Of a stretch of 64,000 bases of DNA, positions 1 to 38,150 are shown in pieces. The stretch comes from Cymodocea nodosa. Taxonomy: Eukaryota; Streptophyta; Magnoliopsida; Alismatales; Cymodoceaceae. Within the stretch, counting starts at the first letter, position 1. Every line of letters starts with the position of its first letter. The position numbers were made by a program, and so were the translations under genes. The DNA lies in the NCBI GenBank assembly GCA_036874045.1, contig JAZBRI010000008.1:7269001-7333000 (forward strand). Reading direction: 5' to 3'. The notes beneath the pieces were generated by a model. It did not search any database and was not told where the DNA came from. It was given only the letters and a program-made list of their open reading frames with translations.

Positions 1-164
1 TTGGAAGTGCTGCAATTCAAAATCAGAATAGAAATATACCACTTAGACAGAAGGAACCAATGGAAGTTAGACCTACTAGAGGATTGCCAATACAAGCTAT
101 ACCTAATCCTGTCAATAAAACTGTTAATGAAATTGATACCTCTTCTAGGAGGATAGCTGAATGA
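1..164 (+). CDS. gag C-terminal end, gypsy-type unit 1 (partial)
   Basis: This is the last 54 codons of a Ty3/gypsy-type gag; the rest lies left of the window. The frame starting at base 3 is open to a TGA at 162-164. It matches the end of the second gag (about 13285-13446) almost codon for codon, including RNIPLRQK and the final EIDTS..R.AE. That second copy carries the Retrotrans_gag region and an NWRNHPN motif, which fix the family. Gag would form the virus-like particle. An F-box reading frame begins 190 bases downstream, so gag and F-box share one element. The part seen here has no lesion. Confidence 0.75.
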   Translation, partial: GSAAIQNQNRNIPLRQKEPMEVRPTRGLPIQAIPNPVNKTVNEIDTSSRRIAE

Positions 165-354
165 AGCAGCTTATCTGAAGCAACTATCTATATGTATATA
201 TGTTTTTATTTTTAGTTACTAGTATCGTAGAGTTAGTTCTTAACTCAACGAACTTAGTTCGTTGAGTTATTCCTTAACTCCACGAGGGTGTGCAGTAGTT
301 ATGTTAATTTTTTGTCTCTACTAAATTTGTGTGTGTGTTATACAGAATCAACAA
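165..354 (+). other. gag to F-box spacer with palindrome and splice-acceptor-like site
   Basis: This is non-coding spacer between gag and the F-box frame. It holds a near-perfect palindrome at 241-269: arms TAACTCAACGAACT and AGTTCGTTGAGTTA around one base. A pyrimidine-rich stretch then runs into TTATACAG, ending at 345, nine bases before the F-box ATG at 355. The same arrangement is kept in unit 2 (13447-13664, acceptor ending at 13653). It reads like an intron end brought along with the gene or used for a spliced subgenomic mRNA. That interpretation is inference. Confidence 0.5.
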
Positions 355-1492
355 ATGGAATTGATGCAATTACCGTTGGATGCACTATGGGAAGTACTGA
401 GTAACTTGTCAGCTAAAGATCTATGCAGGCTATGTTGTGTATCAAAGGAAATTAAAGACTGTATTGAAGAAAAATATTTTCAAGGACTACAAGCTGCAAA
501 AATGACTAAGATTAGAGATGGATTCGTATGGAGGTCATTTAATCGTAGTTCAATTAATCATGAATATCTTGCTATGGAAGAAACTACTGGAATTCCACCC
601 AATACATTAGAAGAAATAAATCATATTATGGGGATAGATGAAGGATTAATCATATACAGGACGAGACCAAGTTATGCAAGTTTATTATTACCTAATATTT
701 TGATAAGAAATCCTATAACAGGAGAAGAATGGAATATAGGAAGACCTAATAGATTTGAAGTACCAACTGTAAATTATGGATCGGCTTTAATATTTTTTGA
801 TAAAAATTCTACAATTCCTGAAAAATTATATTATTGGAGACCTACAGGAAATTGGGGTGAAGATTTATGCTTAAGTGTGTATAATTTTCTAAATAGATCT
901 TGGAATGAAAATATTATGATATATCTAGGACAGAAATCATTAATTAACCAAACACGTCATACTTGATGGATATATATATCTTGTCACAAATATATCAATT
1001 GCATTTAGATCTGATTTATACATAGTGAGCATAGACAGTTATGATGAATATATAGAAATTTTACCTATACCGAGTTATATAGCTAAACCACCATCTGCAG
1101 AATTTAATAAAATTCAAATAGGAATGTGGTATAATGAAGAAGATGATCCTACTTTATGTCTGATAAGATGGTGGGATGAATTAATGAAATTTCAAATATG
1201 GATTATGGAAGACATTAATGAATGGAAGTGGGAAGAGGAATATATTGAAATAGATGTAGAAATAGAAACTACTACATTACCCTAGAACCAAAAAGGATCC
1301 CTTTCTGCATTTCATATCATTAATGGTAATACACTTGTATTTGGAATTTATAATATATTACACGTTTACAAATTAAGAAGGAACAAGAACTACATGAAAA
1401 CAGAGTTAATAGCAAGAAGAACTATGCCTAAAAAGTTTGCTTGGACTGATACATTTATTCCATTCGTTCTTACTTTTCAATCATGTTCTTAA
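355..1492 (+). pseudogene. F-box / F-box-associated protein carried by gypsy-type element, copy 1
   Basis: About 379 codons encode an F-box protein, the substrate-recognition subunit of SCF (SKP1-CUL1) ubiquitin ligases. Residues about 5-40 form an F-box: LPLDALWEVLSNLSAKDLC, then LCCVSKEIKDCI. The middle and end resemble the F-box-associated repeat region (LDGYIYLV, LPIPS, FQIWIMEDINEWKWEEEYIE). I start it at ATG 355 rather than the in-frame ATG at 331, because 331 lies upstream of the acceptor-like TTATACAG and copy 2 also has ATGGAATTGATG here. Lesions are a frameshift near 950-966 and an in-frame TAG at 1283-1285; homology resumes after both and ends at TAA 1490-1492. It lies between an Athila-like gag and a retrotransposon 3' region, so it is cargo and not a host locus. 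F-box identity is firm; the target is unknown. Confidence 0.8.
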
Positions 1493-3280
1493 GTTGTGAT
1501 TTTGTGTGTTCAATGTTGTGTGTATTCTACGTTTACTTAAAAAAATATATATAGTTTTCATTTTATTTTATAAAAGAAAAAAACAAAAACAAAATATCAA
1601 TCCAGTTTGTTGGTATCTATTTTGGGAAACCAATTGGTTTGCTTGTGAGCCACCAAAGGCATAGGAGTCTGGGTTCCACACAAGACACTGAATTATCAAT
1701 ATCTGTTAAATGTTATTTTGTTATATACTTTTTGCTTTTATCTGTGAATGAAAAGTTTTCAGAATCAAATATCAGAATATGCAGAAGGAGATACAAACAA
1801 ATCAAGGTATGTAACTAATTACTTATCCTGAATTTTAAATCAACAAAATTGCATTCATGTCTGCTACAATTATTGTATTTACTATCGAATCTTTTACATT
1901 GAGGACAATGCAAAATGTAGGTATGGGGGGGAGGTAATTAAAGTAACAGTCGTGTAAGTTTGTTAATAAAAAAAAAAACTTAAAATGGTACCGCAAAGTT
2001 TTGTGGAAATTGAAAATTTTTATGAACTTGCTGTAACTATCCGATAATTGAGACTGTAAAATTTATAATCTGTAACTGCTTGAATGTTATATTTAGAAGG
2101 CTATATATGATGCTATAGAATTTACTATTTATGCAAATTTAGATATAGTTTCTTATGTTTTTTCTGAATTTCATGAGTTTAACAGTTTCACGATTTTAAA
2201 ATGAAATCAGAATGCTTAATGAAAAATTAGTAAATTATTTGAAGTCCTGAAGGAGCTGAGATGTGAATTCTAGATTAAATGAAACACATATGACTAAAGA
2301 TACATTTAATTTGATTGATTGAACTTGTAGAATGATTTATGTGTAGATCTTATTAAACTACAGAAAAAGTATGTAGCTCACTGTTATGGATTCATATTTT
2401 CAGTAAATGATAGAAGCAGGACTATATGAGATTGGTGTTTTACTTCATCTGTATTAATGAAATACGTACATATACAGTATGTGATTAATGCTTTGTTTTG
2501 TGTGTATTTTAAAAAAAAGAAAAAAAGAGAGAAAAATTTGAGAGTTTATTGACTTGTTTGATCACAAGCCTTTTGTACTTGAGCAGATAGGTTTGTAAGG
2601 ATTGTTGCCCTGAAAAAAAAAAAAAAAAAAAAAGGACTCTTGAAATCTGGCAACCTAAGATCCTGATCAGATCTGGGATTGTTGACTGAAAGCTCATTAC
2701 ATGGGTACATTAGAAAGCTCCTGTATGATTCAAGCTTGTCAAATTAACTTTTAAATAAAAGAAAAAAGAAAAAAAAGAGAAGAAAAGAAAAAAAAAAAAC
2801 ATATACTATTCTGAAAAGATACAAGTGTTTTGTGAAATACAGATATCTTATGAATCGAGTATATTTTCTGTTATCTAGAATTGCTGAAATATGAATCTGG
2901 AATTGACTTTTGAAGTTGTTTTAATGGAGATACAATTCTTTATTCTACTTGTCTTAATCATATTGAATTGGATTATACTTTGATTCGTTTGTTGTTGAAA
3001 TTTCTTCTAGAAATCTTATTGGAAAATTCAAGATGACAGATGATGAAAAGAAGAACAAACGAGAATATAATTAACACCTATGTGATGATGATATACTTCG
3101 TATGTAATTTGCATATATTCTAAGTATATTTGCAGGTTGATTACTGAAACATATAGAATATATTTTTTTTTTATGCTGAACGGAAGAAAAAAAAAAAGAA
3201 GAAAAGGAATTAATTCTAGCACTTTTTGAAAGACCAATTAATTAGATCTTAGTTTACTAAGGGACTAGCAAAATTTAGGT
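1493..3280 (+). other. 3' non-coding region of gypsy-type unit 1
   Basis: No coding frame is convincing here. At 1901-1910 GAGGACAATG is followed by a G-run at 1921-1933. This pair is typical of the end of the coding part of Athila/Tat elements. Bases about 2170-3150 are homologous to unit 2 (17290-18220) and, in the same sense, to the pol-ORF3 interval of copia B and C. Poly-A and purine-rich runs lie at 2607-2632 and 2755-2801. Confidence 0.65.
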
Positions 3281-3290
3281 ATGGGGGAAG
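3281..3290 (+). promoter_or_regulatory. polypurine tract, gypsy-type unit 1
   Basis: ATGGGGGAAG lies directly before the LTR start TGTTTAG at 3291, as expected for the plus-strand DNA primer. The same sequence recurs at 20594-20602 and 20714-20722. Confidence 0.7.
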
Positions 3291-4849
3291 TGTTTAGAAT
3301 GAAAAAGTGCATATTATTAACGGTGAAATGATGGCTAATTACATAATATTTAGCTTATCATATGAGAATTAAGCCATTATGTTATAATTGCACTATTATA
3401 TGCTTTAATTAAAGAATCTGCTTAATTTTAGGGAATTAATGTCAATTTAGTACATTTTTGAACTATCGGTAAGTTGCAGGCTGTGAAATTCTTAAGTATC
3501 CGAAATGCACCTAAGCATTAGATAGTTAAATTTATGCATGTGTTTTATAGTTAAATCAATGAAGAAAGTCCGTCGAGTTATGTGTAACTCCACGGACTAT
3601 TTATTTTCTAATATGCCACTGTAGCGGTTGCAAAAACAGGAAAGTTAGAAGAAAAATCACGATTGCATGTATTACGCAGGGAGAAGAAATCATCGCCATT
3701 GATATGAATGAAGGAAATCCAACCGACCATTCAAGCAGAAGTAGTTACTATTGAAGAAATATAAAAGAAAAGAAGAAAAAAAAGTGTGTGTGTGATCGAT
3801 GGACGGCTAGTGTGTATAGAGGAGGAGCACCGAGCTTTCTACAAGCAGTATCGGCAATTCTCCAAAGTACCACACCAACCATCATTACCACCACCATCAC
3901 CACCATAATCACCAACCATCAGAGGTCTGTGAGATTACTTTCTAGATGTCGGGTCGATTCTGAGCCAAACACGGTGCCTAACAACCACTGTGAGGAGTGA
4001 TCGCATCGCGGGAAGGGAAGCCATTTTCACCAAGCGTCGACTCATATTTCAGGAGATCGTAAAGCTTCTAGCCTTGACTTCAAGTTGATGCCTGTATGCT
4101 GAAGAGGAGATTATCTTGCAATTCTGGACTCGCGATTCTATAGGGAGAGGAGATAGGATTGTAAGTGGTTTAATTTTCAGTGGTGTAATCGCGTCGTATG
4201 TAGTGACGGAAGTATTTACTGTTGATTGAGATTACTTTACATTTCACCTTTCGCCCATTTCCATGTTCATATTAAACCAAAAATACCAAAAACAAGTTAT
4301 CTACTATTGTATGTTGTATTTGAGTGTTGTATTGTTTGTGTTGTATCGTGATTAATGTTATCTTTGCCAGTGTTGTGATTGCTTTATGTTTGTTTTAGTT
4401 TTGCAGTTTACTAAAATTGGTTCGTTCAAAAGACTTAAAGATTTTAATGGTTACTGTTTGAATTATCTGAATGTTAGTATGCTTAATGATAAATCCAGTG
4501 TTTACTAATATTAAAGAGCTTAATTGATGTTATTTACAATCTGTGGAATCGCCTAATGGTTGGCCGAATTCCTTTGTAAATAGTAGTATTTAAAAAGAAA
4601 AGACAGGCTCGTGGAGTTAACTTAAGTCCACGAGGTTAGTCCATTGAGTTAGCTATAACTCAACGAACTTTATCCGTTGAGTTAACCATAATTCAACGGA
4701 GAGCTTATTGAATATATAAATTTGATTGTTAACAAATGGACAGTTCTAAACTTTTAAGCAATTCCCTATGGGATCGACCTGTACTTGCACATTGATACAA
4801 TAGACACTGTGCACATGCAGTTAAAGTACAAATTAGAATTAATATCTAA
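3291..4849 (+). repeat. gypsy-type LTR 1 (3' part lost)
   Basis: It starts TGTTTAGAAT after a polypurine tract and aligns along its length with LTR 2 (18364-20178). It includes a TATA box (TATAAAAG at 3760-3767, matching 19041-19048) and the segment around CGGGAAGGGAAGCC. The terminal TAAACA is missing, because alignment stops at about 4849 where copia element A begins in antisense. The tail (4610-4700) contains TAACTCAACGAA/TCCGTTGAGTTA inverted motifs. Confidence 0.75.
3760..3767 (+). promoter_or_regulatory. TATA box of gypsy-type LTR
   Basis: TATAAAAG inside LTR 1, at the same alignment position as TATAAAAG 19041-19048 in LTR 2. It probably sets the transcription start of the element. Assigned by motif and conservation only. 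Confidence 0.45.
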
Positions 4850-5210
4850 ATTGTCTTTAATAATATCAGAAGGCAAATTCAGAATACAAATGGATCCTTC
4901 CATGTATGTAGTGAATAAAATTTCGTTTATAGACATGTCCATAATTTTACAGGAATCTTTTTCAAAAATTACTCTGTAAAACTTCATTAAAATAGGAACA
5001 CTCAATAAATTAAAACCTAAGTTTTCCACTAATAAGACATCACTTATAAAGCATTTCTTAGTTATCTAAACCTTGCCAGACCCAAGGATATTTGTTTTAC
5101 TTTTATTTCCAAAGGTAACATGTCCATTCTTGGTCTTTGTTATTTCTTTAAGTAATCGTATATCTCTAGTCATGTGGCTGTATGCTCCACTGTCCATTAT
5201 CCATTTTGAT
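4850..5210 (-). pseudogene. copia A protease fragment
   Basis: The minus strand encodes an aspartic-protease start with DSGAYSHMTRDI (catalytic Asp kept), then VENLGFNLLSVPILMK and a segment ending SDIIKDN. There it runs out of retrotransposon sequence into the gypsy-type LTR. The protease would cleave Gag-Pol. At least one stop or frameshift separates the two halves. The catalytic integrase core is absent. Confidence 0.65.
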
Positions 5211-5269
5211 TTGTGCACCTACAAAATAGTCAAAAAGAGATTTTATCTCTTGGAACCCATTTTTGAGTG

Positions 5270-7193
5270 GGTCCAAGAATTTTAGAGAGAGTCATATTGG
5301 AATAATCAATATTTTTAAACTTCAACTTATCTATTTTCTAATAATTATCCTTGCGTTTCTTTCTCTTAGTGTTATAATTATCAGAACATTTATCTCTATG
5401 TAAACCAGAGTTGAAATTTTCATTTCTGACATTATTTGATTTCTGATTCCAATATCCGATATTCTTTAAATATGAAGAAAATTGATCAAGAATATTAAAA
5501 TTCTCAAATGACTTAGCTTGATTTTTTTGAAAATTTCTTTTGACATTCTTGCATTGTGTACTATCATTTATATGCTGCATTTTATCAATTTGCACATATT
5601 TATCTCCCTTTTTAATCACACATGGAATAATTTGTCTTTTACTATTCTTAGTACTGGAAATAAAGACATTATTTTTAGTAGTACCATCATGTAATATATA
5701 ATTTTCAGAAGATGCATCGTGTAAACCAACACCATGTTTTTCTACATCTGATATTTTACTACTAAGTTCATTTGTTATAGTTTGACTATTATTCCATTTA
5801 TTTAATATAGCCTTTTGATCGCAGACCTTAATCTTTAACATATCAATTTCTTAATTTAAATCAGTAATAGTTAGTTCCAGTTTTTCAATTTCACAGATCA
5901 TTTTCTTCTTATCAGTAATTAAATTTCCTGTGCATGCCTTTGATTTTCTTTTTTAAATTTATTGAACAAAGAGTTCAGAAAATCAATCTTATTTTCAGAT
6001 TCATCTAGCATTTTCTTAGTGTTCTTTCTTTCTATTTTGACTTTCTTATATTTTCTGGCCAGTCAATTGTATTCAACAAGTAATCCATCAAAACTATCAA
6101 AGTTAGCATTTTGATTAGAGGATACCTCACTAGATTTTGCCATGAAGCATACGTTTGCTAGATTTTCTTCTGATGTTGATGAGGATTCATTGTCTGATGT
6201 TAAATCCTTTGTTTCTTCACTTTGTGAAGTTGAAGAGTCATCCCATGTCACTTTAAGTGCCATTCTCTTTCTGAATTTCTTACTCCTAAAATTCCTCCTC
6301 GAATTCTTCTTATCTTTGTTGAGTGGACAATCAGTTTGAAAGTGACCCAGTTTGTTGCACTTGTAGCATATACTTTTGTCTTTCATGAATGACTTCTTCT
6401 CCATATCTCTAGATGTCTTTGCTGACCTGAAGTTCTTGCGTTTATTCAACAGATTTCTAAATTTTCTGGTCAACAACAGTAAATCATCGATAGAATCAGT
6501 AGTGACTTTTGAGACTTTATCAGGCTCAAAAGCCAAATCCCTTCTAGGATTTTCCCCTTTTGAATCTAAATGTTGTACTTCATAAGCTGTCAGATTTCCT
6601 ATGAGATCATCGAGAGTATATGTATTTAAATTTTTGGACTCTTCAATAGATGTTGTCTTTTGAGCCCAAATTTTAGTTAAAGATCTAAGGATCTTTCTTA
6701 CCAAGTCTTTTTCCTCGAATTTCTTGCCTAAAGATTTTAATGAATTTACATTCTCAAGAAAATGGGAAAACATGTCAGAGATACATTCATTTTCATGCAT
6801 TTTAAAAAGCTCATATTTATGTACTAACATATTAATATTAGATTCTTTGACCTGGTTAGTACCTTCATTGGTAACTTCTAATGCATATCATATCTCATAT
6901 ACAGTTTGATATGTAGAAACTTTATTAAATTGATCATGAGATAAAACACAAAACAAGATGTTTAAACCTTTAGCATTTAGTGTCATTCGTTCCTTTTCAT
7001 CAAAAGTCCAAGTATCATATGGAGTCTTAACTAACACTATAGGATTGCTAATTATATGTCATAGTTTGAAATCAATTGACTGAAAGAATACTTTCATCCT
7101 ATATTTCCAATAGCCATAATTGCTACCTTCGAACATAGGAGGACGATTAGTGATCTGTCCCTCAGTCATAACTAAGATTTCAGTATTATCCAT
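5270..7193 (-). pseudogene. copia A gag
   Basis: The start is ATG 7193-7191, as in element D (MDNTEILVMT, then RPPMFEGSNYGYWK). The UBN2-type gag core is followed by an intact CX2CX4HX4C zinc knuckle (CYKCNKLGHFQTDC, around 6310-6370) that binds RNA, then an acidic/serine stretch and a coiled-coil tail ending PTQKWVP. Open pieces are 6063-6830 and 5338-5841; stops and frameshifts lie between and upstream. D (38151-40163) is the better-preserved sibling. Confidence 0.8.
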
Positions 7194-7288
7194 TTTAAAC
7201 AGATGATCTTGAGTAAATGATAGGAAAAACCGATTCCTAAATAATGAAATAAAAGCTCTTAATTAAGATAAAATGCTTTTATACCAGT

Positions 7289-8497
7289 TGTAGGATCGTC
7301 TGTATCACAAGAGGGAGGGTGAATTGTGTCTTTAGTAATTAAACTACCAGCGGATAAAACAAGAGCACAAAACACTTGTAAATGAAATTCTATTCTTTGT
7401 TTAAAGACAAAATTTACAATATCTTTTCAGCTCAATTCCCTTCTTAACGATTTTGATACAGTAATGTTCAATATACAATTCAAATAGAAAAATGAAGCTC
7501 TTATTCAAAACTAATTTCGAATTGTATAAAACCTGATCTTTATGCACACAGCTTCTTTCCTTCTCTTTGCTCAGCTTTTGTATCTCTTCTTCTCCAATTG
7601 TCGAATTTCCAAACTTCTTATGTTTGTAACTCCTTTTCTGAAATTGCTTGAAATTTCAAACTTCTTTTGATGTTGGAGATTTTTTTTTTTTTTTTGGAAT
7701 ATGAATATTCAAACTTAACTTTTCAGTTAGGGATCCAGATTGAATATTTAGACTTGATTTTTGAGATTGGGATCCTTTATTGTAATGTAGCTCGTACTCT
7801 CTATTAGTAGTCGAATTCTGTTGTCTTTCACGTTCAGCATGTTCATCCACTTAATCCATAATCCATAATCCATGTACTAATTTTTTCTTTAATCCAAATT
7901 ACTATCTTTTTGAGTTTCCACTTTCTCCACTATAATTTTGAATTTCCACAATCTCCACTCATAGATTCACTGAAACTTTATTTTCCTAGAGTCTTGTACA
8001 ATATCTTCTAGGTCTTCGATTTAGTTGAACACTTATCCTTTAAGTCTTGTAAAAACTCGAACACTTATCTGTAACTCTTTGAGTTTTTGTACATGCAAAA
8101 CATGTGACTAAACATAGCAAACTTATCTGTTTGTTAGTCATTTTATAAAACTTGAAGACTTATCTATCCATGTGTATAAAAACTTGAATGGTTATCTAAT
8201 TATTCGATTTTCATTACCGAACACACATGGAAAACACATGACAACTTAAAACATTAAAAACACACGTGTAGATAACTTAACTATACGAGTTTTTAACATA
8301 AACTATTCGACAAAAATGAAACATTAACTATCTGAAAGTTTAACTATCAAAAATCTAACTTTTCGGAAAACGTTAACTTATCTAACATAAAAATGAAACT
8401 TTCTAATAATATGTTAACTATTATACTTAGAGAATATTATTTAGACTTATTTAAAAACTTTAATAAAGCATATATCATCAAAACAAAATTCCTAATA
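7289..8497 (-). repeat. 5' LTR of copia A
   Basis: On the plus strand it runs from TGTAGGATCG...AGAGGGAGGGTGAATTGTG to ...AAAATTCCTAATA; the terminal CA has become TA. The 1209 bp compare with 1233 (D) and 1255 (E). The primer site lies immediately to its left. It contains many TAACTATC/CGAA and ACACGTG motifs. Confidence 0.8.
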
Positions 8498-8831
8498 ATT
8501 TTTATTAGTTATAACTTTACGGGAAGTCTGTTGAGTTATGCCTAACTCAACGAACATACTCCATTGAGTCTAGGATAATTTAACGATAACTCAACAGAGT
8601 ATCATAGTTAAGTTCACAGACTTAGTCCGTGGAGTTAATCGTAACTCCATGGAGAGGTAAGTGAGAGAGCGAGAGTTTGCGTAGGAAAATAACCCAATTA
8701 CCCGCTTAAAACTTAGGGTTTATTTATACTAAAACTTAGGATTTGGGGGTATTATCCGTAGAATCATTTAGAACTTAGAACAGTAGAGATTAGAGTGATT
8801 TCATTCCGTTTCGTCACACCACAAAGACAAG
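8498..8831 (+). other. Leader of gypsy-type ORF3, inverted motifs
   Basis: No gene is visible. At 8525-8650 there are repeated GTTGAGTTA/CTCAACGAAC and GTGGAGTTA/CTCCATGGAG inverted motifs, then TTAGGGTTTATTTATAC (8710-8726), which combines a telo-box and a TATA-like string. It stands directly before the ORF3-like frame, as TATA-like strings do before ORF3 of copia B and C. Confidence 0.4.
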
Positions 8832-11058
8832 ATGATGCCAGAGTTTTAGGAGGAAATAGACACCATGAGATTTCTCAGAGAATCAGAAGAATGGCATACG
8901 AGACAAAAGATGGGGAACACAACACATGAAAAAGAACTAGAAAAGGTAGAAGCTGACATTTTCTACTAGAGGAGAGTTTTAGTAGATTTAGATATTACCA
9001 TACCTCAGATTGTAGAAACAAGGATAAAAGTAGCAACAGAAGTTGTTGTGAATAGAGAATGAAAGATTCAAGCCAAACAACGAGGTTGCCCTAGAATTGA
9101 TCCGATGCAAGGCTAGATTATGGTTCTTACGAGAAATTGCTGGTTGTGCAAGGGGTGTAATTAGGCAGCAATAGCAATAGAGGAAAGTAGCTGAAGAATC
9201 AACAGTAGAAATGTCAACTATAGCTACAGAACAAGTCAGACCTTCAATTCCACCAATAGAGCCATTACCATGAGTAACATTTGCTTGACTAAGAACTGAA
9301 GAAGAAGACAAGGAGTTTGCTAACCTGGTCAAAACAACAAAAGACCAAGGAGACGATGAAGAAATGGCTATGGCCAAGGCACATTTGTTGTATGATGCCA
9401 TAAAGAAAAGGCAGGTTGAAGAAAAGTTGAGAGCCTAGTATAAAATTAAAGTAGAGTAGCATTAGGAAGCAACTAGATCAATGGCTATAAGAGGAACTGA
9501 AGTTGGTCCTTTGAGACCAGCAATTATAGAAAGAGTAAAACAAGAAGAGCTAATACCTATGGCTTGAGGGCCTGTAGAGCTTATTTTTGTAGATTTAATC
9601 TCAAAGGAGGAAGAGGAAGACCAGGCATAGCTATTTAGAAAAAGAAAAGAAAAATAGAGTGTTTGAAGCTCCTATAGAGATTAAACCTAAACCTGTAATA
9701 ATAGAAGGGCCTATAGAGCCCATTTTTGTAGACCTGCTATCCGAATCTAAGGAGGAGCAGGAGCAGCTACAGCAAGAGCAAAGAAAAGAAGAAAAACAGG
9801 CTGAAATTAGTTTGCAGCCTATAGAAAGAGAAGAAACTGAAATTAGGGCAGAAGTTGATTTGCCCGTGACTCCATCCCAATTTGCCACAAAATCAGAAAG
9901 AACAATGACAATGTAGATTGGTAGTTAGGAGGAAGAAGAAAGAGAAGAAACTGAAGAAGCTGAACAAAAGCATATGGAACAAGAAGGAAATATCTCGATA
10001 GATTCCACTAAAGAGGGAGAGACTCTTCAGCAAATTTTTCAAACGATTCAAGAAAGAAGAGTGAAGAGTTCTACCGACTCTCCACCATAGATAGAAGTAG
10101 AAACAAGAGTGCAGGAATCTCCGGATCATTTCCAACAAATTCAAGCTCAACATATTGAAGAGGAAATTCAAGAACAAACCCCTCTAGAGCAACAAATTCA
10201 AATTCCTGACCTTGTTGAAGCAACAATTCTGAATGAATTACTTGGAGTCAGGAAACATACAATAAATATCAAGAGATTAGGGGTTATGATATTATATATA
10301 GCAGACCAGTAAACTAGGATGGTATGTAGGAAATTAAAGAATTATTCGAGTTCTAAGGTCTACTAAAATTTATTTCTCAATAGAGAGGGCATGTAGTATA
10401 CAAAAATCTAGTGCCCTGCTTTTATAGAAACTTGAGAGAGGAAGAAGGAAAGTTAATTTCTAACATGGAGCAAGCTGATGTATAGATAGCATTAGAGCTT
10501 CTCCACAATATTTTTGAATTGAAAAATGAAGGGATAGAAATTCTGGAGAACACAACTACAATTGAGTGGACAGAATAGGAAATAAAGGATTGTTTAGCTA
10601 TCAATCTTGGTGTGCCATTATTAAATAGATTAAAGCACTTAAATGGTAAAGCACACATGGTAGTTAACATTTTGATTAAAAATGTCTACCAACGACAAGG
10701 CCATGATATTGAACTAAGTCAGTTTGTTAAATGGGCCACATATGTAGTTGTAAACAAGATTCAAATTAATTGGTCTGCAATTTTTATCTCCAAGTTGAGA
10801 GCAGCAAAGAAGAAATTATTTTATGGAGATCTGATTCCACTATTGATGATGGACAGTATTGACTTCACAAAATAGACGTCTAAAAGGATAAGATCTAGAG
10901 CCATTTCAATGAAGGAATACAGAAATTACAATGTTGTAGCTGCTGAGGTATCTGGACCTTCCAAAGACATTATAGGAGCTGTTGAATGGATAAATCAATT
11001 AGAACAACAACTAGAAAAGCTCTAAAAGGAAGTAGATGAACTTAGGAAAAAGGACTAA
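8832..11058 (+). pseudogene. ORF3-like protein upstream of gypsy-type gag
   Basis: This is a decayed gene of about 740 codons, homologous to the extra ORF of copia B, C and E. The N-terminal helical region (ELEKVEADIFY.RRVLVDLD) aligns with copia C LEELYRDYFFSQDIIDEV. A Glu/Gln-rich middle follows (open piece 9659-9916). The globular part includes LNRLKHLNGKAHMVVNI and VNKIQINWSAIF (10612-10875) and resembles the 'putative plant transposon protein' family (Pfam Transposase_32, by recollection). A coiled-coil end (INQLEQQLEKL) closes at TAA 11056-11058. Many TAG codons stand where Gln is expected, and at least two frameshifts are present. Function is unknown. Confidence 0.6.
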
Positions 11059-12100
11059 ATGTATTGTTCGTCTACTTATGTTTGTATTGAAAAATATCTA
11101 ACTGTATGTAAATGTAAACTATTCATAGAAATGAATGTTTTAATTTCATATGTTTTTGAATTCGTGTTTGAGAATGAATGATATAATTGAGAACTGTATT
11201 GAATATTATACAACTGTTTAAAGATGTGCAAGACTATTTAAAAGATTTATAAATTTTATGATTGACATGGTTAAATGCATGATAATTAGTTAATGCCTGA
11301 ATATATCTGCATGCTGAAAAGTAAAATGTAAATTCTACATAATAGGAAGTTAACTATAAGTTAAATATGCATATAATATTTAGATTTAAATGAGTTAAAT
11401 TAGAACACTACATTAATGACATGTATTTAACTTTAATTAAGTTGACAAAATATAGAAAAAAATTTTATATAGAAGTTAAGATGAGGAGTAAGTTTTAGGA
11501 AAAATTTGCTAAGTGTTAACTCAACGAAGTAAGTCCGTTGAGTTAACCTTAACTCCATGAGGTCAAGAATAAAATATAAGGTCACTCCGTTGAGTTATCT
11601 ATAACTCAACGAAGTTAGTCTGTGGAGTTAGCAACGAAGCTAGTCCATTGAGTTAGCTGTAACTCAATGAGATTAGTTTGTTGAGTTAGAAATAGTAACC
11701 GAAGTTAGTCCGTTGAGTTAACTATAACTCAATGAGGTTAGTTCATGGATTATGCTGAACGGTTATTCTTTTAGCCACGAACGAAACTTCGTAGGTTTAG
11801 CAATTACGAAAATTTGAAATTTGAACACCTACATGTATCCATAAAAATAGGAACCATACTACACGTTACAAGACACGTTCTTGTAATGAGATTCATTTGT
11901 TTTATGGATGTGCATTATAAATATAGAATAGAATGTTATTTACGAGTTACCAGCACTTGAGGAAGAAAAGAAAATTCGTTGGGGAACTGGAAGGGGAAGC
12001 AGCTGATTCAACTTCATCTGTCAACAACTATTTACTAAGAACAAAACATCAGATTAGTATGTAATTAATCTTCTACTATTTTACTTTATGTTAAGAGTTT
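11059..12100 (+). other. Non-coding leader before gypsy-type gag, palindrome cluster
   Basis: No coding frame. 11059-11500 is plain AT-rich DNA. 11515-11760 packs repeated GTTAACTCAACG/CGTTGAGTTAAC inverted motifs; the best, 11515-11547, has 12-base arms and a 9-base loop. TATAAATATAG lies at 11929-11939, and CGTTGGGGAAC at about 11978 faintly resembles a primer-site remnant. I could not place a 5' LTR boundary here. Confidence 0.4.
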
Positions 12101-13446
12101 ATGAGCACATGGATTCGTTCTCCTAGCACTAAACGATTAGTAAGAACACCTACACAGGATTATTCAACATAGAGGTATACTGAAATATTTTCTAAATTAG
12201 ACTTTAACAAAATCCTTAAAGGTATAGCTAACCTTTCTTTAAAAGAGAATGAAGATATAGCTACTACAATAGAAAAACCATTAGGGGAAATTCTGTATCC
12301 TGAACTAGTTGATGAACCTTTATGTATTTGATTGCAAAACTTTGAAGGAGATAGGTTTGAACTGAAATCTAATTATATTAGTCAATTGCCACACTTTCAT
12401 GGATTAGAAAGAGAAGATGCCTATTATTTCCTTAGAGAATTTAATGAAGTTTGTCAAATGATGAAAATGCCGAACATGAGTATTGATGCTATTAAACTTA
12501 GATATATCCATTTTGCTTTAAAAGACATAGCTAAGAGATGGTTATATACTCTATCGCCTGATTCAATTTCTGCATGGACTGAATTTTGCTCTATTTTTTT
12601 GGGAAAATATTATCCAACACATCAAACAATTAAAAAGAAGGAAATACTAATGTGTAGATAAAAACAGGGAGAATTATTTTAGAAATATTTTGAAAGATTT
12701 AAAGATTTACTAACTCAATGTCCAAATCATGTAATGAGTAAAGCACAATTAATAGGTATAATTTATGAAGGCATAGATGTTTCTACGAAATCTTTACTAG
12801 AATCTACTTGTCAGAATGGATTTTTAAAACTATGTAGTGAAGAAGCATGGGCATATTTAAAAAACTTTGCAAAAAGAATTGCACAGTGGGAAACTCAACT
12901 AAAGCTATTACAGATAAAAGAATATTGCCAAGGGGAATGCATGAAATAGATTCAAGCACTATGCTTGAAGTTAAATTAACTGAATTAACAAAGAAAATAG
13001 AAGAGTTATCATTAAATCAAAAACTAGCATAAAAGAATGCAAACGTTAGTGACTTAGATATTATTTATGCTAAAAACCAGAAAGATAACTTTGGAAATTC
13101 TTATAACTTTAATTGGAGAAATCACCCGAACTTATCTTAGAGAAATAACAATTTACAGGGAGGGGAAACTATAAATGATAAAAATATAAATTATGAAGCA
13201 TTAATTGAACAAGGATCTAGAATAGAGAAGTTAGAAAAGATAATTCAACAATTAAACAATTATCTAGATCATGTATTTGGAAATGCTACCATTCAAAATC
13301 AAAATATGAATAGAAATATACCCCTTAGACAGAAGGAATCAATAGAAGTTAGACCTATTGGAGGATTACCAATACAAGCAGTACCTAACCTTGTCAACAG
13401 AATTGTTAATGAAATTGATACCTCCTATGGGAGGGAAGCTGAATGA
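12101..13446 (+). pseudogene. Athila/Tat-like gag, gypsy-type unit 2
   Basis: About 448 codons from ATG 12101 (MSTWIRSPSTKRLVRTPTQD). Residues about 90-190 form the Retrotrans_gag region: LPHFHGLEREDAYYFLREF, then LKDIAKRWLYTL and W..F...FLGKYYP. The C-terminal part has NWRNHPNLS, the hallmark WRNHPNFSW motif of Athila/Tat Gag, then a coiled-coil stretch. It ends at TGA 13444-13446. Lesions: TGA at about 12329, TAA 12659, TAG about 12680, a frameshift near 12900, and TAG/TAA beyond 13030. No protease, RT or integrase follows; an F-box gene does. The element therefore needed a partner for reverse transcription. Confidence 0.8.
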
Positions 13447-13664
13447 TGTAGCATAACTAAAGTAAATATGTATAATATAGTAAGTAGAAAAATAATAATA
13501 ATAATAATGTAAGTTTAATTATAGTTAGTAGTATCATAGAGTTATTACTTAACTCAACAAACTTAGTCCGTTGAGTTATGACCTAACTCCACGAGGGTAA
13601 GTAAGTAGCTATGTTAATTTTATTTCTGTTAAATTTTTGTTTATGTTATACAGAATCACAACAG
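13447..13664 (+). other. gag to F-box spacer, unit 2
   Basis: Counterpart of 165-354: TAACTCAACAAACTTAGTCCGTTGAGTTA-type palindrome at about 13551-13580, then a T-rich tract and TTATACAG ending at 13653, just before the F-box ATG at 13665. Spacing and acceptor are conserved in both copies. Confidence 0.45.
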
Positions 13665-16556
13665 ATGGAATTGATGAAATTACCATTGGATGCACTTAGG
13701 GAAGTACTAAGTAACTTATCAGCTAAAGATCTGTGCATATTATGTTGTGTATCAAAAGGAATTAAAGACTGTGTTAGAGAAAAATATTTTCATAGACTAC
13801 AAGCTGCAAAAATGACTAAGATTAGAGATGGATTTTTATGGAAGTCATTTAATCATAGTTCAATCAGCTATGAATATCTAAATATGGAAGAAAATGTTGG
13901 AATTCCACCCAATACATTAGAAGGAATATGTAGGATTGTATGGCTACACAAGAGGGGGGTGAATTGTGTATTTTTAATATTTTCTGAAATATAATTGAAA
14001 CTTTAAAACTCAAAAACAAGTCGAGACATTGTTTTCATAAAATCATTTTTATTCAAGGTTTCAATTACAATATACAATTCAATTCTCCTCAGAAATTGTA
14101 GATGCAATTATATCTCGATACCATGTATCATCTAAACAATTTCATAACTACAAATAGAGAAAACTAATTTGCGAAATTTAAAACATTTCTCCTTGTTTGA
14201 GATCTTTCTTCTTCTTCTTCTTTCTTCTTCAGCAATTCTTCAGTGACAAATATCTTGTCTTTTTATGCTTCATCGAATTTGCTTTCTTCTGATACTTCAA
14301 ATCTTCAGTGACGAAAATCTTACATTTTTATGCTTCACTAAATTTTCTTCCACCTGAGAGATTTTCCCAAAGGGGTGTTTTTGATCCCTGAAAAAGATTT
14401 TTCTTTTGGTGTGTAGGGATAGTTTGATCCTTGAAAAGATTTTTCTTTTTGTGTGCAAGGATTGTTTGATCAACGAGAACTCTATGCCTTTTATACTATA
14501 TCTTCATTTCATGCATATCCTTCACATTTAACTACTACTAGTTTTTCACTTCTTCAAGTCTTTTCTTTTTCCTTCATTGAAACACACACGTTCTGACCAA
14601 CGTTTACATTTCGAATTTTCTTTAATCATCATTCCTAGATATCTGAAAAATTTTCTGCAAAATAAACTTTCTCGTCCAAAATCTTTCATCAAGCGTAATA
14701 AGAAGTCGTTACTTTAATGTTAACTAAACGAGTAACACAAGTATATATATATAACTTAACGTTTCTTACTTAACGAGTTCCTCATGTGCCATTTCACGTG
14801 ACAAGTACTATAGCTAACTCAACGAACTAAGTCTGTGGTGTTATGCTAACTCAACGAACCAGCTTAACCTTTCTTTTGGAAGGTTAAACGATAACTCACC
14901 GAAAACAGTTTAAGTTTCAAATAGTTACAGTTGTAAGTCTCCGAAAAACTCTTTTTACCATAAAACTAGCGTGTCAAGACCTGAAAACATGACTTAAGTT
15001 ACCTTTCGGATAGTTACGACTATAAGTCTTTGAAAAAAACTTTAACTCACCGATTCAGTAATAAACAAATGTTTTTATAATAAGAATTTTACCACGTGCA
15101 AAAATAACAACTTAAGTTTATAACGCTAACCTAACGCGTTGCCTTAGTGTTTAATATAGCAACTCAATGCGTTTAGATATGTTAACTTAACGAGTTAAAC
15201 ATGTGTACCTCACGTGATACAATACAACATTTGTAACTTATAATTTCACCACGTGTATAACACTAACTTAACGAGTTCGTCTCTTCTTTTACTCACTAAC
15301 TTAACGAGTTCTCACGTGACTTATTTTAACCTTTAAGCCTCTAACTTAATGAGTTCTCACGTGACCTCTATACAAACAAAACTCTAACTTAACGAGTTAT
15401 CTAAATCGTGCACTGTTCATGATACAGAAGATATAACTTTAAAACATATCATGCTTTTCAATAAAAACACACGTTAACTTAACATTTAGTTAAATGAGAA
15501 ATTAATGCAATGAAACGACTAGTTATTAACTTTAGATCCAATATAGACAAGTATTTATATCAGTAAGCTTTTTCTACATTAACTGATGATTTTAATTTCT
15601 TTTCACAAGCAATAGTAATTGAGCAAATATGATTATTTTCATTCAGCACACATCATCAAAACAAAATACTCAACAGAATAGATCATACTATGGGGATAGA
15701 TGAATGATTAATTATTTACAAAACCAAACCAAGGTATGCAATTCTGTTACCCGATATTTTGATTAGAAATCCTATCACTAAAGAAGAATGGAATATAATA
15801 AGGCCTAATAGATTTGAAGTACCAACTAAAAATTGTGGGTCAACTTTAACATTTTTTGATAAAAATTTGACCATTCTTGAAAAATTGTATTACTAGAGAC
15901 CAACTAGAAATTGGGATGAGGATTTATGCTCAAGTGTATATAATTTTCTAAATAGATCTTGGACTAAAAATACTATGATATATCTAGGAAAAAAAGCATT
16001 AATGAACAACATACATGTTATACTTGATGGATATATATATTTAGTGTCAGATATATCAGTTGCATTTAGATCTGATTTATACATAATAAGCATAGATAGT
16101 TATGATAATGACTTTATAGAAATGTTGCCTATACCGAGTGATATAGCTAAACCACCATCTACACAATATGATAAAATTCAATTAGGAATGTGGTATAGTG
16201 AATATGATGATCTTACTTTATGTCTAATAAGATGGTGGGATGAATTAATGAAATTTCAAATATGGATTATAAAAGACCTAAATGAATGGAAGTGGGAAGA
16301 GGAATATATTGAAATATATGTAGAAATAGAAACAACTACATTATCTTGGAACAGAAAAAGATCCCTTTCTGCAATTCATTTCATTAATGGAAATACATTT
16401 ATATTTAGTATTGATAACATATTGCAAGTTTACAAGTTAAAAAGGAAAGCAGACTATATTAAAATAGAATTAATAGTAAGAATAATTATGCCTAAAAAGT
16501 TTGCTTAGACTGACACGTTTATTCCATTTATTACTACTTTTCAATCATATTCTTAA
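13665..16556 (+). pseudogene. F-box protein copy 2, split by a solo LTR
   Basis: Same F-box gene as 355-1492, in two exon-like parts (13665-13928 and 15676-16556) separated by a 1747-bp solo LTR. The F-box reads LPLDALREVLSNLSAKDLC, LCCVSKGIKDCV. The second part contains LDGYIYLVSDISVAFRSDLY, LPIPSDIAKPPS and FQIWIIKDLNEWKWEEEYIE. It lacks the frameshift of copy 1 but has TAG near 15894, TGA near 15705, and TAG 16506-16508 where copy 1 has Trp; the homologous stop is TAA 16554-16556. Both copies descend from one intact cargo gene. Loss happened independently, since the lesions differ. Confidence 0.8.
13929..15675 (-). repeat. Solo LTR, copia family II, with target duplication
   Basis: It runs TGTAGGATTGTATGGCTACA...ACTCAACA on the plus strand. 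The 1747 bp match the LTR of B (1746 bp). It is flanked by GAATA at 13924-13928 and 15676-15680, a perfect 5-bp target duplication, with the F-box gene continuing on both sides. No internal region is left, so LTR-LTR recombination removed it. TATA box (minus strand) at 14487-14495. Six CACGTG sites lie at 14795, 15093, 15211, 15250, 15313 and 15358, separated by TAACTTAACGAGTT units. Confidence 0.9.
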
Positions 16557-18353
16557 ATTGTGATTCTATACTTTTAATGTTGTGTGTACTCTGTATTTAT
16601 TTTTAGAAAAGAAAGGAAATTTTTAGTTTTTGTTTTATTTTATAAAAAAAAAACAAAATATCAATCCAATTTGTTGGTATCTATTCTAGGAAACCAACTA
16701 GCTTGCTTGTGACCCACCAAAGGCATAGGAGCTTGGGTTCCATACAAGACACTGATTTAACAATTTATGTTTTGTTATATATTTTGCTTTTATTTGTGAA
16801 TGAAAAGTTTTTTAGAATCAAAAGTCGAAAGATATTGAAGGAGATACAAAAGAAAAAGGTATGTAATTGATTACTTATCCTGAATTTACATTTAAACTCA
16901 GCTCGTGGAGTTATTCATTAACTCAACGAATTAAGTTCATTGAGTTAGGTGCTAAGTTAACGAAACAATATTCATGCCTACTAACATTTACTGTATTTAC
17001 TATAAAATCTTTTACATCGAGGACAATGCAAAATGTAGGTATGGGGGGAGGTAATTAGATTAAAAGCCAAATAATTTTGTTAAATTAGAGGAATTAGAAT
17101 GGTGCTGCAAAGTTCTGTGAAAATTGAAAATTTTTTATGAATTGCTGTAACTATTTGATAATTGAGACTATCAAATTTTTAAGAATTGTAACTGCTTGAA
17201 TGTTATATTTAGAATCTTATATAAGATGCTACGAAATTCTACTATTCATACAAATCTAGATATAGTATCTTATATTTTTGCTGAATATTATGAGTTTAAT
17301 AGTTTCACGATTTTAAAGAGAAATCAGAATGCTTAACGGAAACTTAGTAAATTATCTAAAAACCTGAAAGAGCTAAAATGTTGATTTTTGGATTAAATGA
17401 AATACATATGATCAAGGATACATTTAATTTGATTGATTAAACTTGTAGAATGATTTATGTGTAAATTTTATTAAACTATAGAAAAAGTATGAGCTTATTG
17501 ACATGGATTCATATTTTCAGTAAATAATAGAAGCAAGATTATATGAGATTTGTGTTTTTTTGCATCTGTATCAATGAAATATGTATATATACTATGTTGA
17601 AAAGAAAAAAAGAGAAAAAGAGAAAAACTTTGAAAGTTTATTGACTTGTTTGATCATGAGCCTTTTGTACTTGAGTAGATAGGTATGTAAGGATTGTTGA
17701 CCTAAAAAAGGATTCTTTAAATGTGGCAACTTAAGATCCTGATCAGACTTGGGATTGTTAACTGAAAGCTTGATACATGGGTACACTAGAAAGCTCTTGT
17801 ATGATTCAAGCTTTTTAAATTAACTTTTAAAGTACAAATATACATATACTGTTCTGAAAAGATAAAAGTGTTTTGTGAAATATAGAAATCTTTTGAATCA
17901 AGTATATTTTCTGTTATCTAAGATTATTGAAGTATGAATCTAGAATAGACTTTTGAAGTTATTTATTTGAGATAAAATTCATTATTCTACTTGTTTTAAT
18001 CACATTGAGTTGGATTGTGTTTTTGATTCATATGTAGTTGAAATTTATTCTAGAAATCATATTGGAAAATTTAGGATAACAGATGTTTAAAAGAAAAGAA
18101 AAAAGATGATAATATAATTACCACCTATGTGATGCTAATATATTTTGTATGCAATTTACATTTGTTTTAAATATATTTGTAGGTTGAAGAGGAGAAAACA
18201 ATGTTAAAATAGATTACTGAAAAATATAGAATATCTTTATAGTAATCTAATTTATGTATTTTGAAAAAAAAAATGAAGAATTAATTCTAGCACTTTAGAA
18301 AGACCAACTAGTTAAATCTTAGTAGTTTGCTAAGGGACTAGCAAAATTTAAGT
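16557..18353 (+). other. 3' non-coding region of gypsy-type unit 2
   Basis: Counterpart of 1493-3280. GAGGACAATG at 17019-17028 is followed by a G-run at 17042-17050. 17290-18220 aligns with unit 1 and, in the same sense, with the pol-ORF3 interval of copia B (45715-46650) and C (56515-57450). The polypurine tract before LTR 2 is mutated (TATCTAGGAAG, 18353-18363). No gene seen. Confidence 0.65.
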
Positions 18354-18363
18354 ATCTAGGAAG

Positions 18364-20178
18364 TGTTTAGAATGGAAAAGTGCATAATATTAACGGTTAA
18401 ATGATGGTTATTTGCATAATATTTATCTTATCATATGAGAATTAAGCCTTTATGTTATAATTACATTGTTATATGCTTTAATGAAAGAATCTGCATAATT
18501 TCAAGGAATTAATGTTAATTAAGTACATTTCTGAACTATCGGTGAATTACAGGCTTTGAAATTCTGAAGTATCCGAATTTTCTATTATTTCAGAGAGTTA
18601 TATTGAATGTACCGGATAGTTATGTTCTAAATGCTTAAAAAATATTTTATTATTTCTTGGAGTACACGTGTTGAAACATCAATGCATGACTTAAGTGAAT
18701 TTTTGGTAAGTTACCTGGTAACTATCTGAAATGCATCTGAGCATCGGATAGTTAGGTTTGTAAGTATCTAGAATATTTTAACTAGTTATTGTCTTTGTTG
18801 TACATGTTTTATAATTAAATCAACGAAGTAAGTCTGTTAAGTTATCTATAACTCCACAGACCATTTATTTTCTAATATGCTACTGTAGTAGTTGCAGAAA
18901 CAAGAAATTTGAAGGAAAACCACGATTGCACGTATCACATAAGAATTTACTCGTGGAAGGAAGAAGAAATCACCATTGTTGATATGAATGAAGGAAATCC
19001 AACTGATCATCTAAGTAGAAGCAGTTACTACAGAAAGTACTATAAAAGAAGAGGAGAAAGACAAAGAAAGGGTGTGTGTAGAGGTGGAGGATCGCACTAA
19101 CTGCAGGAAGCATCGGAAGTTCCCTGAAACTCCACACTACCACCAAAATCACCAACCATCGGAGATCTATGAGGATACCTTCCTGATGTCGGGTCGATTC
19201 CGAGCCAAACATGGTGACTGACAACCATTATGAGGAGTGATCGTGTCACGGGAAGGGAAGCCATTTTCACCAAGCACCAACTCATATCTCAAGAGATCGT
19301 AAAGCTTCTAGCCTTGGTTTTGGGTTGATGCTAGTATGTTGAAGAGGAGATCATCTTACCATTCTTGATTCATGATTCTATAGGGAGAGGAGGCAAGATT
19401 GTAAGTGATTAAGTTTTCAGTGGAGTAATCGCGTCACATGTAATGACAGAAGTTTTTACTATCGATAGAGATTTTTACATTTCACCTTTCATTCATCTTC
19501 AGGAACATATCAAAACAAAAATACCAAAAACAACAAATTATTTGTGTTTACATTTAGTATTAAAGTGTTGTATTATTTGTTTTGTATCGTGATTAATGTT
19601 ATCATTGTTAGTATTGTGAATGTTTTATGTTTGTTTGATTCAGAAAATAAAAAATAGTTTTATTGTTTACTGAAATTGATTCGTTCTAGATACTTAAAGA
19701 TTTTAATAGTTACTGTTTGAAATATTTGAATGTTAGTTTTGCTTAATGATAAATCTAATATTAACTAACATTTAAGAGCTTAATTGATGTTATTTACATT
19801 CTGTGGAACCACCTAATGCTTGGCCAAATTCCTCTGTAAATAGTAGTATTTAACTGGAAAGGTAGGCTCATGGAGTTAACTTAAGTCCACAAGGTCAGTC
19901 CGTTGAGTTAACCATAACTCTACAAACTAAGTCCATTGTGTTAACTGTAACTCAATAGAATGCTTAACTGAACACATATAAACTCCAATATAAAAATTGA
20001 AACAATACACAATTCTTGCTCAATCTTTGTGGGATCAACCTATACTTGCACACAAATACAATATACATTGTGCACTTGCAGTTAAAATACAAATTGGAAT
20101 TAATATCTAATTTGTGTGAAAGGTTGTTTGTTACTTTTAAAAGTAATTATTGATATAAGCATAAAAACAAATTAAACA
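18364..20178 (+). repeat. gypsy-type LTR 2 (complete)
   Basis: It is bounded by TGTTTA and TAAACA, a perfect 6-bp inverted terminus; 1815 bp. A polypurine remnant precedes it and a primer-site remnant follows at 20187, so it serves both as 3' LTR of unit 2 and as 5' LTR of the deleted unit 3. TATA box TATAAAAG at 19041-19048. The first 420 bp carry TAACTATC/CGGATAGTTA motifs, and 18440-18780 is also found inside copia E. Confidence 0.75.
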
Positions 20179-20186: not shown

Positions 20187-20199
20187 TGGCACCGCTGCA
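20187..20199 (+). promoter_or_regulatory. Primer-binding-site remnant, tRNA-Asp type
   Basis: TGGCACCGCTGCA, nine bases after the LTR end, resembles TGGCGCCGTTGC, the tRNA-Asp-complementary primer site usual for Athila/Tat elements (two mismatches in 12). Position and similarity support it; it is degenerate. Confidence 0.5.
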
Positions 20200-20722: not shown

Positions 20723-20730
20723 TGTTTAAA
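20495..20730 (+). repeat. 120-bp tandem duplication spanning PPT and LTR start
   Basis: Two copies with a few base differences (GGGATTAGC / GGGACTAGC; AAGTAAAG / AAGTAATG), each ending GTATGGGGGAAGTGTTTA. Confidence 0.85.
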
Positions 20731-21362
20731 ATAAAAAAGTACATAATATTAATGGTTAAATAATGGTTAATTACATAATATTTAGCTTATCATATAGAAT
20801 TAAGCTATTATGTTACAATTGCATGATTATATGCCTTAATTACAGAATGTGCATAATTTCAAGGAATTAATGTTAATTGAATATCATTTTTGGAATATTG
20901 AAAACCTAATTTAAGTGTGGTTTTATAGTATTAAGCATGATCTATTTTATTTACACATATTTATATCATGTATAGTGCATGGTAGCAACTCATTAAGTTA
21001 GTGTTCTTTTTGTTAAAAGATCACAAGCCAACTTGTTGAGTTATAGGTTTAAAGGTGTAAAAAGATCATGCGAGAACTCATTGAGTTAGTGAGTAAAACT
21101 ATAAGTTGTATATGTAAACTCGTTAAGTTAGCATAATTGTACCTATTGAGTTACTTGATTACACAATAAGGTAACGTGTTGTGTTAGTGTTATATGCTTA
21201 TACGTTATTTCTTTATTTCACATGATATATTATATCAAGTCCATTGAGTTAACAGTTAAGTCAATGGAGTATGTTTGTTGAGTTACACTAACTTTGTAGA
21301 TCAGCTATTTTCTAACATACCACTGTTAGCAATTGTAGAAAAAGAAAATTCGAAGGAAAACC
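20723..21362 (+). repeat. gypsy-type LTR 3, left part
   Basis: It starts TGTTTAAAAT after the second polypurine tract and aligns with LTR 2 up to GAAGGAAAACC, where copia III interrupts it. Differs from LTR 2 in a middle stretch rich in AACTCGTTAAGTTA and GTTGAGTTA motifs (20980-21300). Confidence 0.7.
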
Positions 21363-22853: not shown

Positions 22854-22854
22854 A

Positions 22855-22867
22855 TTGGCATTAGAGC
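22855..22867 (+). promoter_or_regulatory. Primer-binding site, tRNA-Met type (copia III)
   Basis: TTGGCATTAGAGC directly after the 5' LTR, two transitions away from the copia standard TTGGTATCAGAGC, which pairs with initiator tRNA-Met. Confidence 0.75.
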
Positions 22868-22905
22868 AAGGTTGATCTCGCAAATAGATTTAACCATCTA
22901 AGATC

Positions 22906-27342: not shown

Positions 27343-27640
27343 TTTCATATCTCTACTCTCCAAGCTCACAACTAGGAGCTTGTTCTACTAACATCTTTAT
27401 TTTGTAGCAACTTAGCCATTTTGACAATCGGTAAAAAAGGGGGAGCAATATCATATTTTGGTAAGCAAAGCTGCAGCAAAGTATGGGGAGAAATTCAAGG
27501 GGAGTGATTTCAAAAAAACAGGGGGAGTTTCTAAATTTAATTATTCTGTATTCCTTGTGTGCTTTTCTAAATAGATATATAGGGAGAGAAATACATGTAA
27601 TACATTGTAAGGTTTTTGCCATTATCAAAAAGGGGGAGAT
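27343..27640 (+). promoter_or_regulatory. 3' untranslated region with several polypurine tracts (copia III)
   Basis: AAAAAAGGGGGAGC (27434-27447), ACAGGGGGAGT (27520-27530) and AAAAAGGGGGAGAT (27628-27640, directly before the 3' LTR). Multiple tracts before the LTR are common in SIRE/Maximus-like elements. No ORF here. Confidence 0.7.
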
Positions 27641-30163: not shown

Positions 30164-30320
30164 GGGTGCATTTGGTAGAGGAGCTGGAGTGCACCCCTAC
30201 GTTGGAATGTGTGTTAGGAGCGTGCTTTAAACAAGCAATCGCGCTCTTCATCGACTCTAGAAGCACTGGAGCTATAGTGACGACCAACAAAGCATATTTT
30301 TGGGCACTGTATTTTCCTAG
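30164..30320 (+). mobile_element. Tourist/PIF-Harbinger-like fragment, left end
   Basis: GGGTGCATTTGGTA follows TAA within the LTR, and TAA is the usual 3-bp target of PIF/Harbinger MITEs. The terminus resembles GGG..G.TTTGGT Tourist ends. Only the left part is seen; copia E enters at 30321. Identification rests on the terminus and TAA only. Confidence 0.35.
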
Positions 30321-38065: not shown

Positions 38066-38150
38066 TTCATTATTATCATAATTAAAAGCCTTCATTTCTC
38101 TATTTAGGAATCGGCTTTTCCTGTTATTTACTTCGGATCATCTGTTTAAA

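Follow-up and report, generated by a model that had tools for sequence, protein, structure and literature searches.

Two gypsy-type units in the window

The window, by which the whole analysed stretch of 64,000 nucleotides is meant, holds two retrotransposon units, each with an F-box reading frame. The original prediction had placed these frames at 355-1492 and 13665-16556, and there they are indeed found, with PF00646 matches at 325-963 (E 5e-10) and 13605-13991 (E 6e-11) that both lie above the curated cut-off. The parts of the two units and their surroundings are as follows.

1..164, plus strand: end of the gag of unit 1, the rest lying beyond the window (reading frame; 82% DNA identity of 14-618 to 13296-13928)
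338..345, plus strand: 3' splice site TTATACAG ahead of F-box copy 1, equal to the joining place in spliced copies
355..1492, plus strand: F-box gene copy 1, disrupted by a frameshift and a stop (PF00646; reading frames)
1493..3278, plus strand: 3' non-coding region of unit 1 (~78% to 16560-18363)
3279..3290, plus strand: polypurine tract of unit 1 (tract-LTR junction)
3291..4857, plus strand: LTR_A, right end truncated, end approximate (76-89% match to LTR_B)
4850..8450, ends approximate, minus strand: copia 5' LTR and gag fragment breaking into the unit (inverted matches to 36884-40543; frames)
8660..11060, plus strand: PF20167-like additional ORF (aORF) of unit 2, decayed (30-35% amino-acid identity to copia-borne PF20167-like ORFs)
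11061..12056, plus strand: leader ahead of the gag of unit 2, its end being exon 1 of spliced copies (comparison with these)
12057..13653, plus strand: intron GTATGT...TTATACAG containing gag and spacer (missing between these sites in L010, L031, L038 and others)
12101..13446, plus strand: gag (capsid), broken (PF03732, E 3e-6 at 12332-12658)
13665..16556, plus strand: F-box gene copy 2, interrupted (PF00646; second half FBA_1-like, under the cut-off)
13929..15675, strand not assigned: solo copia LTR in F-box copy 2, with 5-bp duplication GAATA (92.5% match to 40725-42480)
16557..18351, plus strand: 3' non-coding region of unit 2 (DNA match to unit 1)
18352..18363, plus strand: polypurine tract of unit 2 (tract-LTR junction)
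18364..20178, plus strand: LTR_B (LTR comparison)
20187..20198, plus strand: primer-binding-like site TGGCACCGCTGC (one match, about one expected by chance, the argument being its position behind LTR_B)
20723..21362, plus strand: left part of LTR_C, whose right part lies at 29164-30164, past an inserted copia element

LTR_A, LTR_B and LTR_C are copies of one LTR, and spacer, 3' region and LTR are common to both units at ~76-89% identity, so that comparisons within the window bear out the claim that the same gag precedes, and the same 3' region, polypurine tract and LTR follow, both F-box copies; the tract-LTR junction occurs four times in the window versus no time in 100 shuffles. The copia element inside LTR_C spans 21363-29163, LTR positions 553-558 being present on either side of it.

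The two F-box copies lie 13 kb apart, agree at 74-78% of amino acids between frames and carry, as had been noted, different lesions: a frameshift near 950 and a stop near 1283 in copy 1, the solo copia LTR and three in-frame stops in copy 2. Since LTR_B is followed by the primer-binding-like site, the units appear to be adjacent members of an array with common LTRs, and both are dead, rearranged copies in it. Two mobilisations, which had been deduced from the lesions, cannot be shown by such an array alone; it is the genome that shows the dispersal. Comparable arrays, in which one LTR seemingly serves two neighbouring F-box units, were seen in L012, L015, L017 and L013 as well as in the window. 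The aORF upstream of gag, recognizable in L010 with E 2.4e-6 (under the cut-off), adjoins the gag leader in L009, L023 and L024, and by this contiguity is part of the element.

A palindrome-like motif (AACTCAACGAACTTAGTCCGTTGAGTT and variants) is found at 222-290, 4620-4690, 8500-8640, 11516-11740, 13547-13595 and 16900-16950; repeats of this type occur in the gypsy LTR, leader and spacers, and partly in a copia LTR. Copia elements on the minus strand, which we take to be SIRE-like, contain at 46569-45674, 57478-56480 and 35351-35005 pieces that match the gypsy 3' region or LTR at ~75-85% identity, placed between pol and a PF20167-like ORF. This suggests that copia and gypsy elements have exchanged sequence.

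The F-box frame and its protein

The search for intact copies in the genome, which the original prediction had proposed, was successful, as the frame is whole from its ATG in seven loci (L030-L036, 376-379 codons), including the gag-less spliced copy L031 (379 codons); it reaches 348-363 codons in L029, L037 and L038 and 348 in L140. L029-L038 were chosen for long frames, and accordingly demonstrate the existence of whole copies, not their frequency. In three whole copies scanned PF00646 gives E 4e-11 to 1.7e-10, and the F-box-associated part matches FBA_1 (E 0.026-0.074) and TIGR01640 (E 4e-7 to 1.6e-5), both under the curated cut-offs, as are the matches of the window copies to FBA_1 (E 0.007 and 0.015) and of the copy-1 read-through to TIGR01640 (E 1.5e-6).

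Similarity searches returned little. The copy-1 read-through had no protein neighbour at E 0.01 among 1,556 candidates, one piece of copy 1 had no relative in viral or GTDB contigs, and a PDB sequence search with a copy-1 piece gave no match; with alignment A1 the PDB gave four matches of E 0.058-0.66, two of which bear the name F-box only protein 4, none being significant. The AlphaFold model of L036, built with 13 aligned copies, has a pLDDT of 41.7 and is too poor for use.

Occurrence in the genome

A Ty3/gypsy LTR retrotransposon of high copy number carries the F-box as a standing component. The assembly (374.6 Mb, 28 contigs) was searched with the profile PF00646, and of the best 150 of 4,220 first-look candidates 139 places were read: the first 28 rows, one row inside L013, the ten longest-frame rows and 100 rows as 271-bp windows. 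All but one of these 139 belong to the F-box-carrying gypsy element, the F-box adjoining the same gag or leader, spacer and 3' region (on the upstream side only in the 100 short windows); the 138 include L026 and L027, repeats of L025 on small contigs. The sole exception, L005, holds no near relative of the element F-box. Being the best scores, the 150 tell what top-scoring F-boxes are, not which share of all F-box genes is borne by the element. An F-box standing beside gag in the window only, through a nearby unrelated insertion, is not what these neighbourhoods display, and the view of the F-box as mobile cargo of a gypsy-type element holds in the genome, where whole frames exist besides.

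Pattern counts, with at most two mismatches permitted, gave 1,959 unspliced sites for the subfamily with the copy-1 acceptor and 1,351 for that with the copy-2 acceptor, versus none in either reversed control, and the listed spliced sites alone spread over 20 contigs. In many loci inspected the LTR starts with TGTTTAG after the purine tract. Three loci (L001, L002, L008) represent a diverged F-box subfamily with ~60% amino-acid identity, and L001 has an LTR nested within gag. The same module matches in L025, L026 and L027 lie on one large and two small contigs, a likeness that probably stems from assembly repeats.

Spliced copies

From L010, L031 and L038 gag and spacer are absent exactly from ...CAGACTG/GTATGT to TTATACAG/AATC..ATGG, slashes marking the borders, and the F-box start codon lies just behind the 3' splice site. 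Among 100 further rows 88 retain the spacer, ten have this first-donor junction and two (L078, L107) the junction of a second donor, CAACTATCT/GTATGT, which is situated right after the gag stop and joined to the same acceptor. In all 13 first-donor copies read the junction falls at one and the same GT and AG; L131, L133 and L048 have an altered base next to it. Genome-wide, 206 first-donor junctions of the copy-1 type and 13 second-donor junctions were counted (reversed controls 0 and 0), and the copy-2 type junction was seen once, in L048, among the rows read. The exact GT/AG junctions argue that, more than once, RNA with this splice was produced and copied back into DNA, from which it follows, as read from DNA copies, that the F-box protein would be made from a spliced, env-like RNA that underwent reverse transcription.

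On an F-box tree rooted with L001, in which L141 and L010 are the same place, spliced copies fall into seven separate clades, or six once branches below 80 are collapsed, and L048, of the other subfamily, stands among unspliced copy-2 types on an exon-1 tree with a clade support of 100. As splicing is irreversible in DNA, the F-box tree is most simply read as several independent events of splicing and reverse transcription; template switching could act as a shortcut, spreading one spliced form and mimicking independent events. On the exon-1 tree (22 copies, few unspliced copy-1 types among them) three changes of state suffice and none of 1000 label shuffles needed so few, which means that spliced copies cluster. 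An extra C in exon 1 is common to L038, L108 and L131-L135, and at least one gag-less form has thus probably been amplified.

Pol and gene order

For the family as a whole, the description as gag-only proved unfit, as a number of copies have pol on the same strand as the F-box and upstream of it. An RNase H piece precedes the F-box in L010 (PF17919, E 6e-23), and the best 150 of 5,729 candidates from a genome search with the L010 piece were paired with 332 distinct F-box places, comprising the listed PF00646, first-donor-junction and copy-1-acceptor sites, with copy-2-acceptor sites left out. Fifteen of the 150 reverse transcriptase (RT) matches, 14 without the query locus L010, have an F-box 1.5-12 kb downstream on the same strand, versus two upstream on the same strand and one and none on the opposite strand, 0.7 being expected per class. 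The two lie 5.66-5.89 kb apart in five spliced copies, against 7.48 kb in the unspliced L009, a difference of about the intron length; the remaining spacings range over 3.3-9.6 kb, some of them far from this main class.

One copy, read in two pieces (L147, L148) as far as the first part of the aORF, ~2 kb short of an F-box junction at C5:13457553, presents in order an LTR, a primer-binding site (PBS) TGGCGCCGTTGCCGGGGA behind the LTR end, an open frame with a CX2CX4HX4C motif 56 nt from the PBS, protease, RT, RNase H, integrase, repeats and the aORF start, with domain matches to RVT_1 (4e-18), RT_RNaseH (5e-18) and rve (2e-14) and a protease match under the cut-off (E 1e-4). LTRs, PBS, polypurine tract and, in this one copy, the order protease-RT-RNase H-integrase are those of Ty3/gypsy elements; the usual gag upstream of pol is not found in L147/L148, where a capsid piece has no match at E 10. 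The PBS TGGCGCCGTTGCCGGGGA would match a tRNA, and the PBS and gag motifs suggest the Athila/Tat lineage.

Behind their PBS, L013 and L019 start as L147/L148 does, and in L009 the capsid lies behind the aORF, with an RT match 7.5 kb upstream of the F-box. Pieced together from L147/L148, L009, L013 and L019, the capsid appears to be located between aORF and F-box, behind pol. Neither this position of the capsid gag, nor the splicing, nor the PF20167-like ORF before gag had figured in the original prediction.

Units of other build exist as well. Between LTR_A and LTR_B of the window no pol frame of at least 100 aa is found, in L021 the PBS leads, without pol, directly into repeats that elsewhere precede the aORF, and in L012 and L015 the LTR leads to leader or gag; the pol-less units look like derivatives. 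A splice origin of L021 was considered and is unsupported, there being no clear GT-AG.

Selection on the F-box frame

Changes shared among copies were set against singletons in 37 copies (L005, L026 and L027 dropped), with 5000 draws and sites treated as independent. For changes present in at least three copies the observed/expected N/S is 0.54, with 214 amino-acid changes versus 248.6 expected (p 2e-4) and 11 stops versus 24.6, whereas singletons are near neutral (N/S 0.91-0.92; 25 stops versus 28.2). By class, N/S is 0.53 for changes in two copies, with no depletion of stops (11 versus 11.6), a weak 0.84 for three to five copies and 0.38 for at least six. Constraint is tightest in the F-box domain (residues 1-45), with an N/S of 0.27 and no stops on 44 changes.

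Wrong-phase controls for changes in at least three copies gave 0.97 and 1.09, and 3' region controls 0.92, 0.72 (p 0.07) and 0.95, none of the latter being significant. For gag the value is 0.50 in the main phase, a rough figure, as the copy used for coordinates shifts frame part-way (19 majority stop codons), and 0.84 and 1.06 in the others. A pairwise omega of 0.39 between the window copies (bootstrap 0.27-0.56) was discarded, as the wrong phases also gave 0.54 and 0.68. Together, the shared changes suggest that the F-box gene has been kept working by selection.

A spliced F-box gene and its possible function

We consider it likely that the family is a high-copy Ty3/gypsy element in which the gene closest to the 3' end encodes an F-box protein of ~376-379 aa, expressed via splicing and acting as an SCF receptor. 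Unspliced RNA would supply the capsid and spliced RNA the F-box protein, as with env in retroviruses; the F-box end would bind SKP1 and the C-terminal FBA-like part would pick the target, whereby the element would make its own substrate receptor for the host SCF ubiquitin ligase, a product that may be used against host control of the element. Of the candidate targets a host protein limiting the element, such as a silencing or restriction factor, would be the most likely, a proposal that is nonetheless tentative, followed at some distance by the element's own proteins. Somewhat more speculative than the host target is the scenario in which the capsid has moved behind pol into the intron before the F-box, splicing toggles between capsid and an SCF receptor directing the degradation of a host silencing or restriction factor, and the spliced RNA has become a successful gag-less parasite of the family.

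The strongest competitor, doubtful but with an appreciable chance, is an action of the F-box protein on its own element, for instance by setting capsid or polymerase levels through degradation, splicing picking capsid or F-box. As the capsid lies within the intron whose removal puts the F-box ATG beside exon 1, capsid and F-box products would be alternatives, and self-regulation fits this arrangement as well as action on the host does; the F-box plus FBA type of protein is uninformative on the target.

Improbable is a mere passenger, a host F-box gene captured once that just rides along. The full frame is present in only seven of 37 F-box loci read, even though long frames were the criterion for choosing ten of these, 11 stop variants are common to at least three copies, and the class of three to five copies reaches only 0.84; against this, changes in at least three copies favour silent ones and singletons do not, off-frame and 3' controls are not significant, and the gag-less L031 keeps its frame open. 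More improbable still is an element of TR-GAG type, with gag and F-box cargo and with pol borrowed from other elements. The absence of pol between LTR_A and LTR_B and the starts of L021, L012 and L015 would agree with it, but it stands only for derivative copies, given the 14 RT matches besides the query locus with a same-strand F-box downstream and the series PBS-CCHC-PR-RT-RH-INT-aORF in L147/L148.

That gag-less copies arose by DNA deletion instead of splicing is very hard to believe: other deletion derivatives do exist in the family, but the same GT/AG recurs in 13 of 13 first-donor copies read, the second GT in two, and the junctions at 206 and 13 places genome-wide. Local duplication, or a chance insertion beside an F-box gene, for which the 13-kb distance in an apparently single array might speak, is refuted by spliced sites on 20 contigs and thousands of unspliced sites.

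Should the F-box protein be functional, the transposon would bring along a tool of its own for diverting protein degradation in the host, in parallel to viral F-box suppressors, and would offer a handle on the host proteins that restrain plant transposons. A single element can also leave thousands of F-box frames in a genome, and these might be mistaken for host genes, a risk illustrated by the 138 transposon copies among the 139 F-box places read (best 150 of 4,220 candidates). The spliced copies are a DNA record of reverse-transcribed splice forms, and a capsid located behind pol, should further copies confirm it, would break with the gag-pol order typical of LTR elements.

Comparison with known systems

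The polerovirus protein P0 is a viral F-box silencing suppressor and, likened by description only, likewise an F-box protein encoded by a genetic parasite. TR-GAG elements resemble the derivative copies in having gag without pol, but here pol-bearing members and an F-box gene exist. Ogre/Tat elements are gypsy elements with partially spliced RNA and an additional ORF, as is the case here; Ogre splices at a different place, between protease and RT, and is not known to carry an F-box. In maize, Bs1 is present in few copies with fragments of genes, unlike the whole reading frame in thousands of places described here. Bs1 is also an LTR element with host-derived coding sequence, as mentioned in PMC7264820.

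Env-like genes of plant LTR elements such as Bagy2 lie 3' of pol and are expressed from spliced RNA (as described in PMC7264820), and the F-box shares with them both this position and the splicing, seen here as DNA copies; in contrast, the F-box replaces the env-like protein, the capsid lies in the intron, and there are hundreds of spliced genomic copies. Gypsy elements of Phalaenopsis carry an AlkB m6A demethylase ORF, and are alike in that a host-type protein, argued there to affect host control, is fixed as an extra gene (as described in PMC9289625), but the protein is a different one, AlkB there and F-box here. The screen of 121 angiosperm genomes in that study used RT-marked regions, and its main text does not mention F-box (PMC9289625), nor do the main texts of PMC3726574 and PMC11963269; in the literature searched, mainly by title, no LTR retrotransposon with an F-box among its fixed genes is on record.

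Plant LTR elements with additional genes, among them a host-type enzyme (PMC9289625), and with spliced env-like genes (PMC7264820) are already known. New are the type of gene, an F-box, unreported as far as searched, the unusual gene order and the record of splicing kept in DNA.
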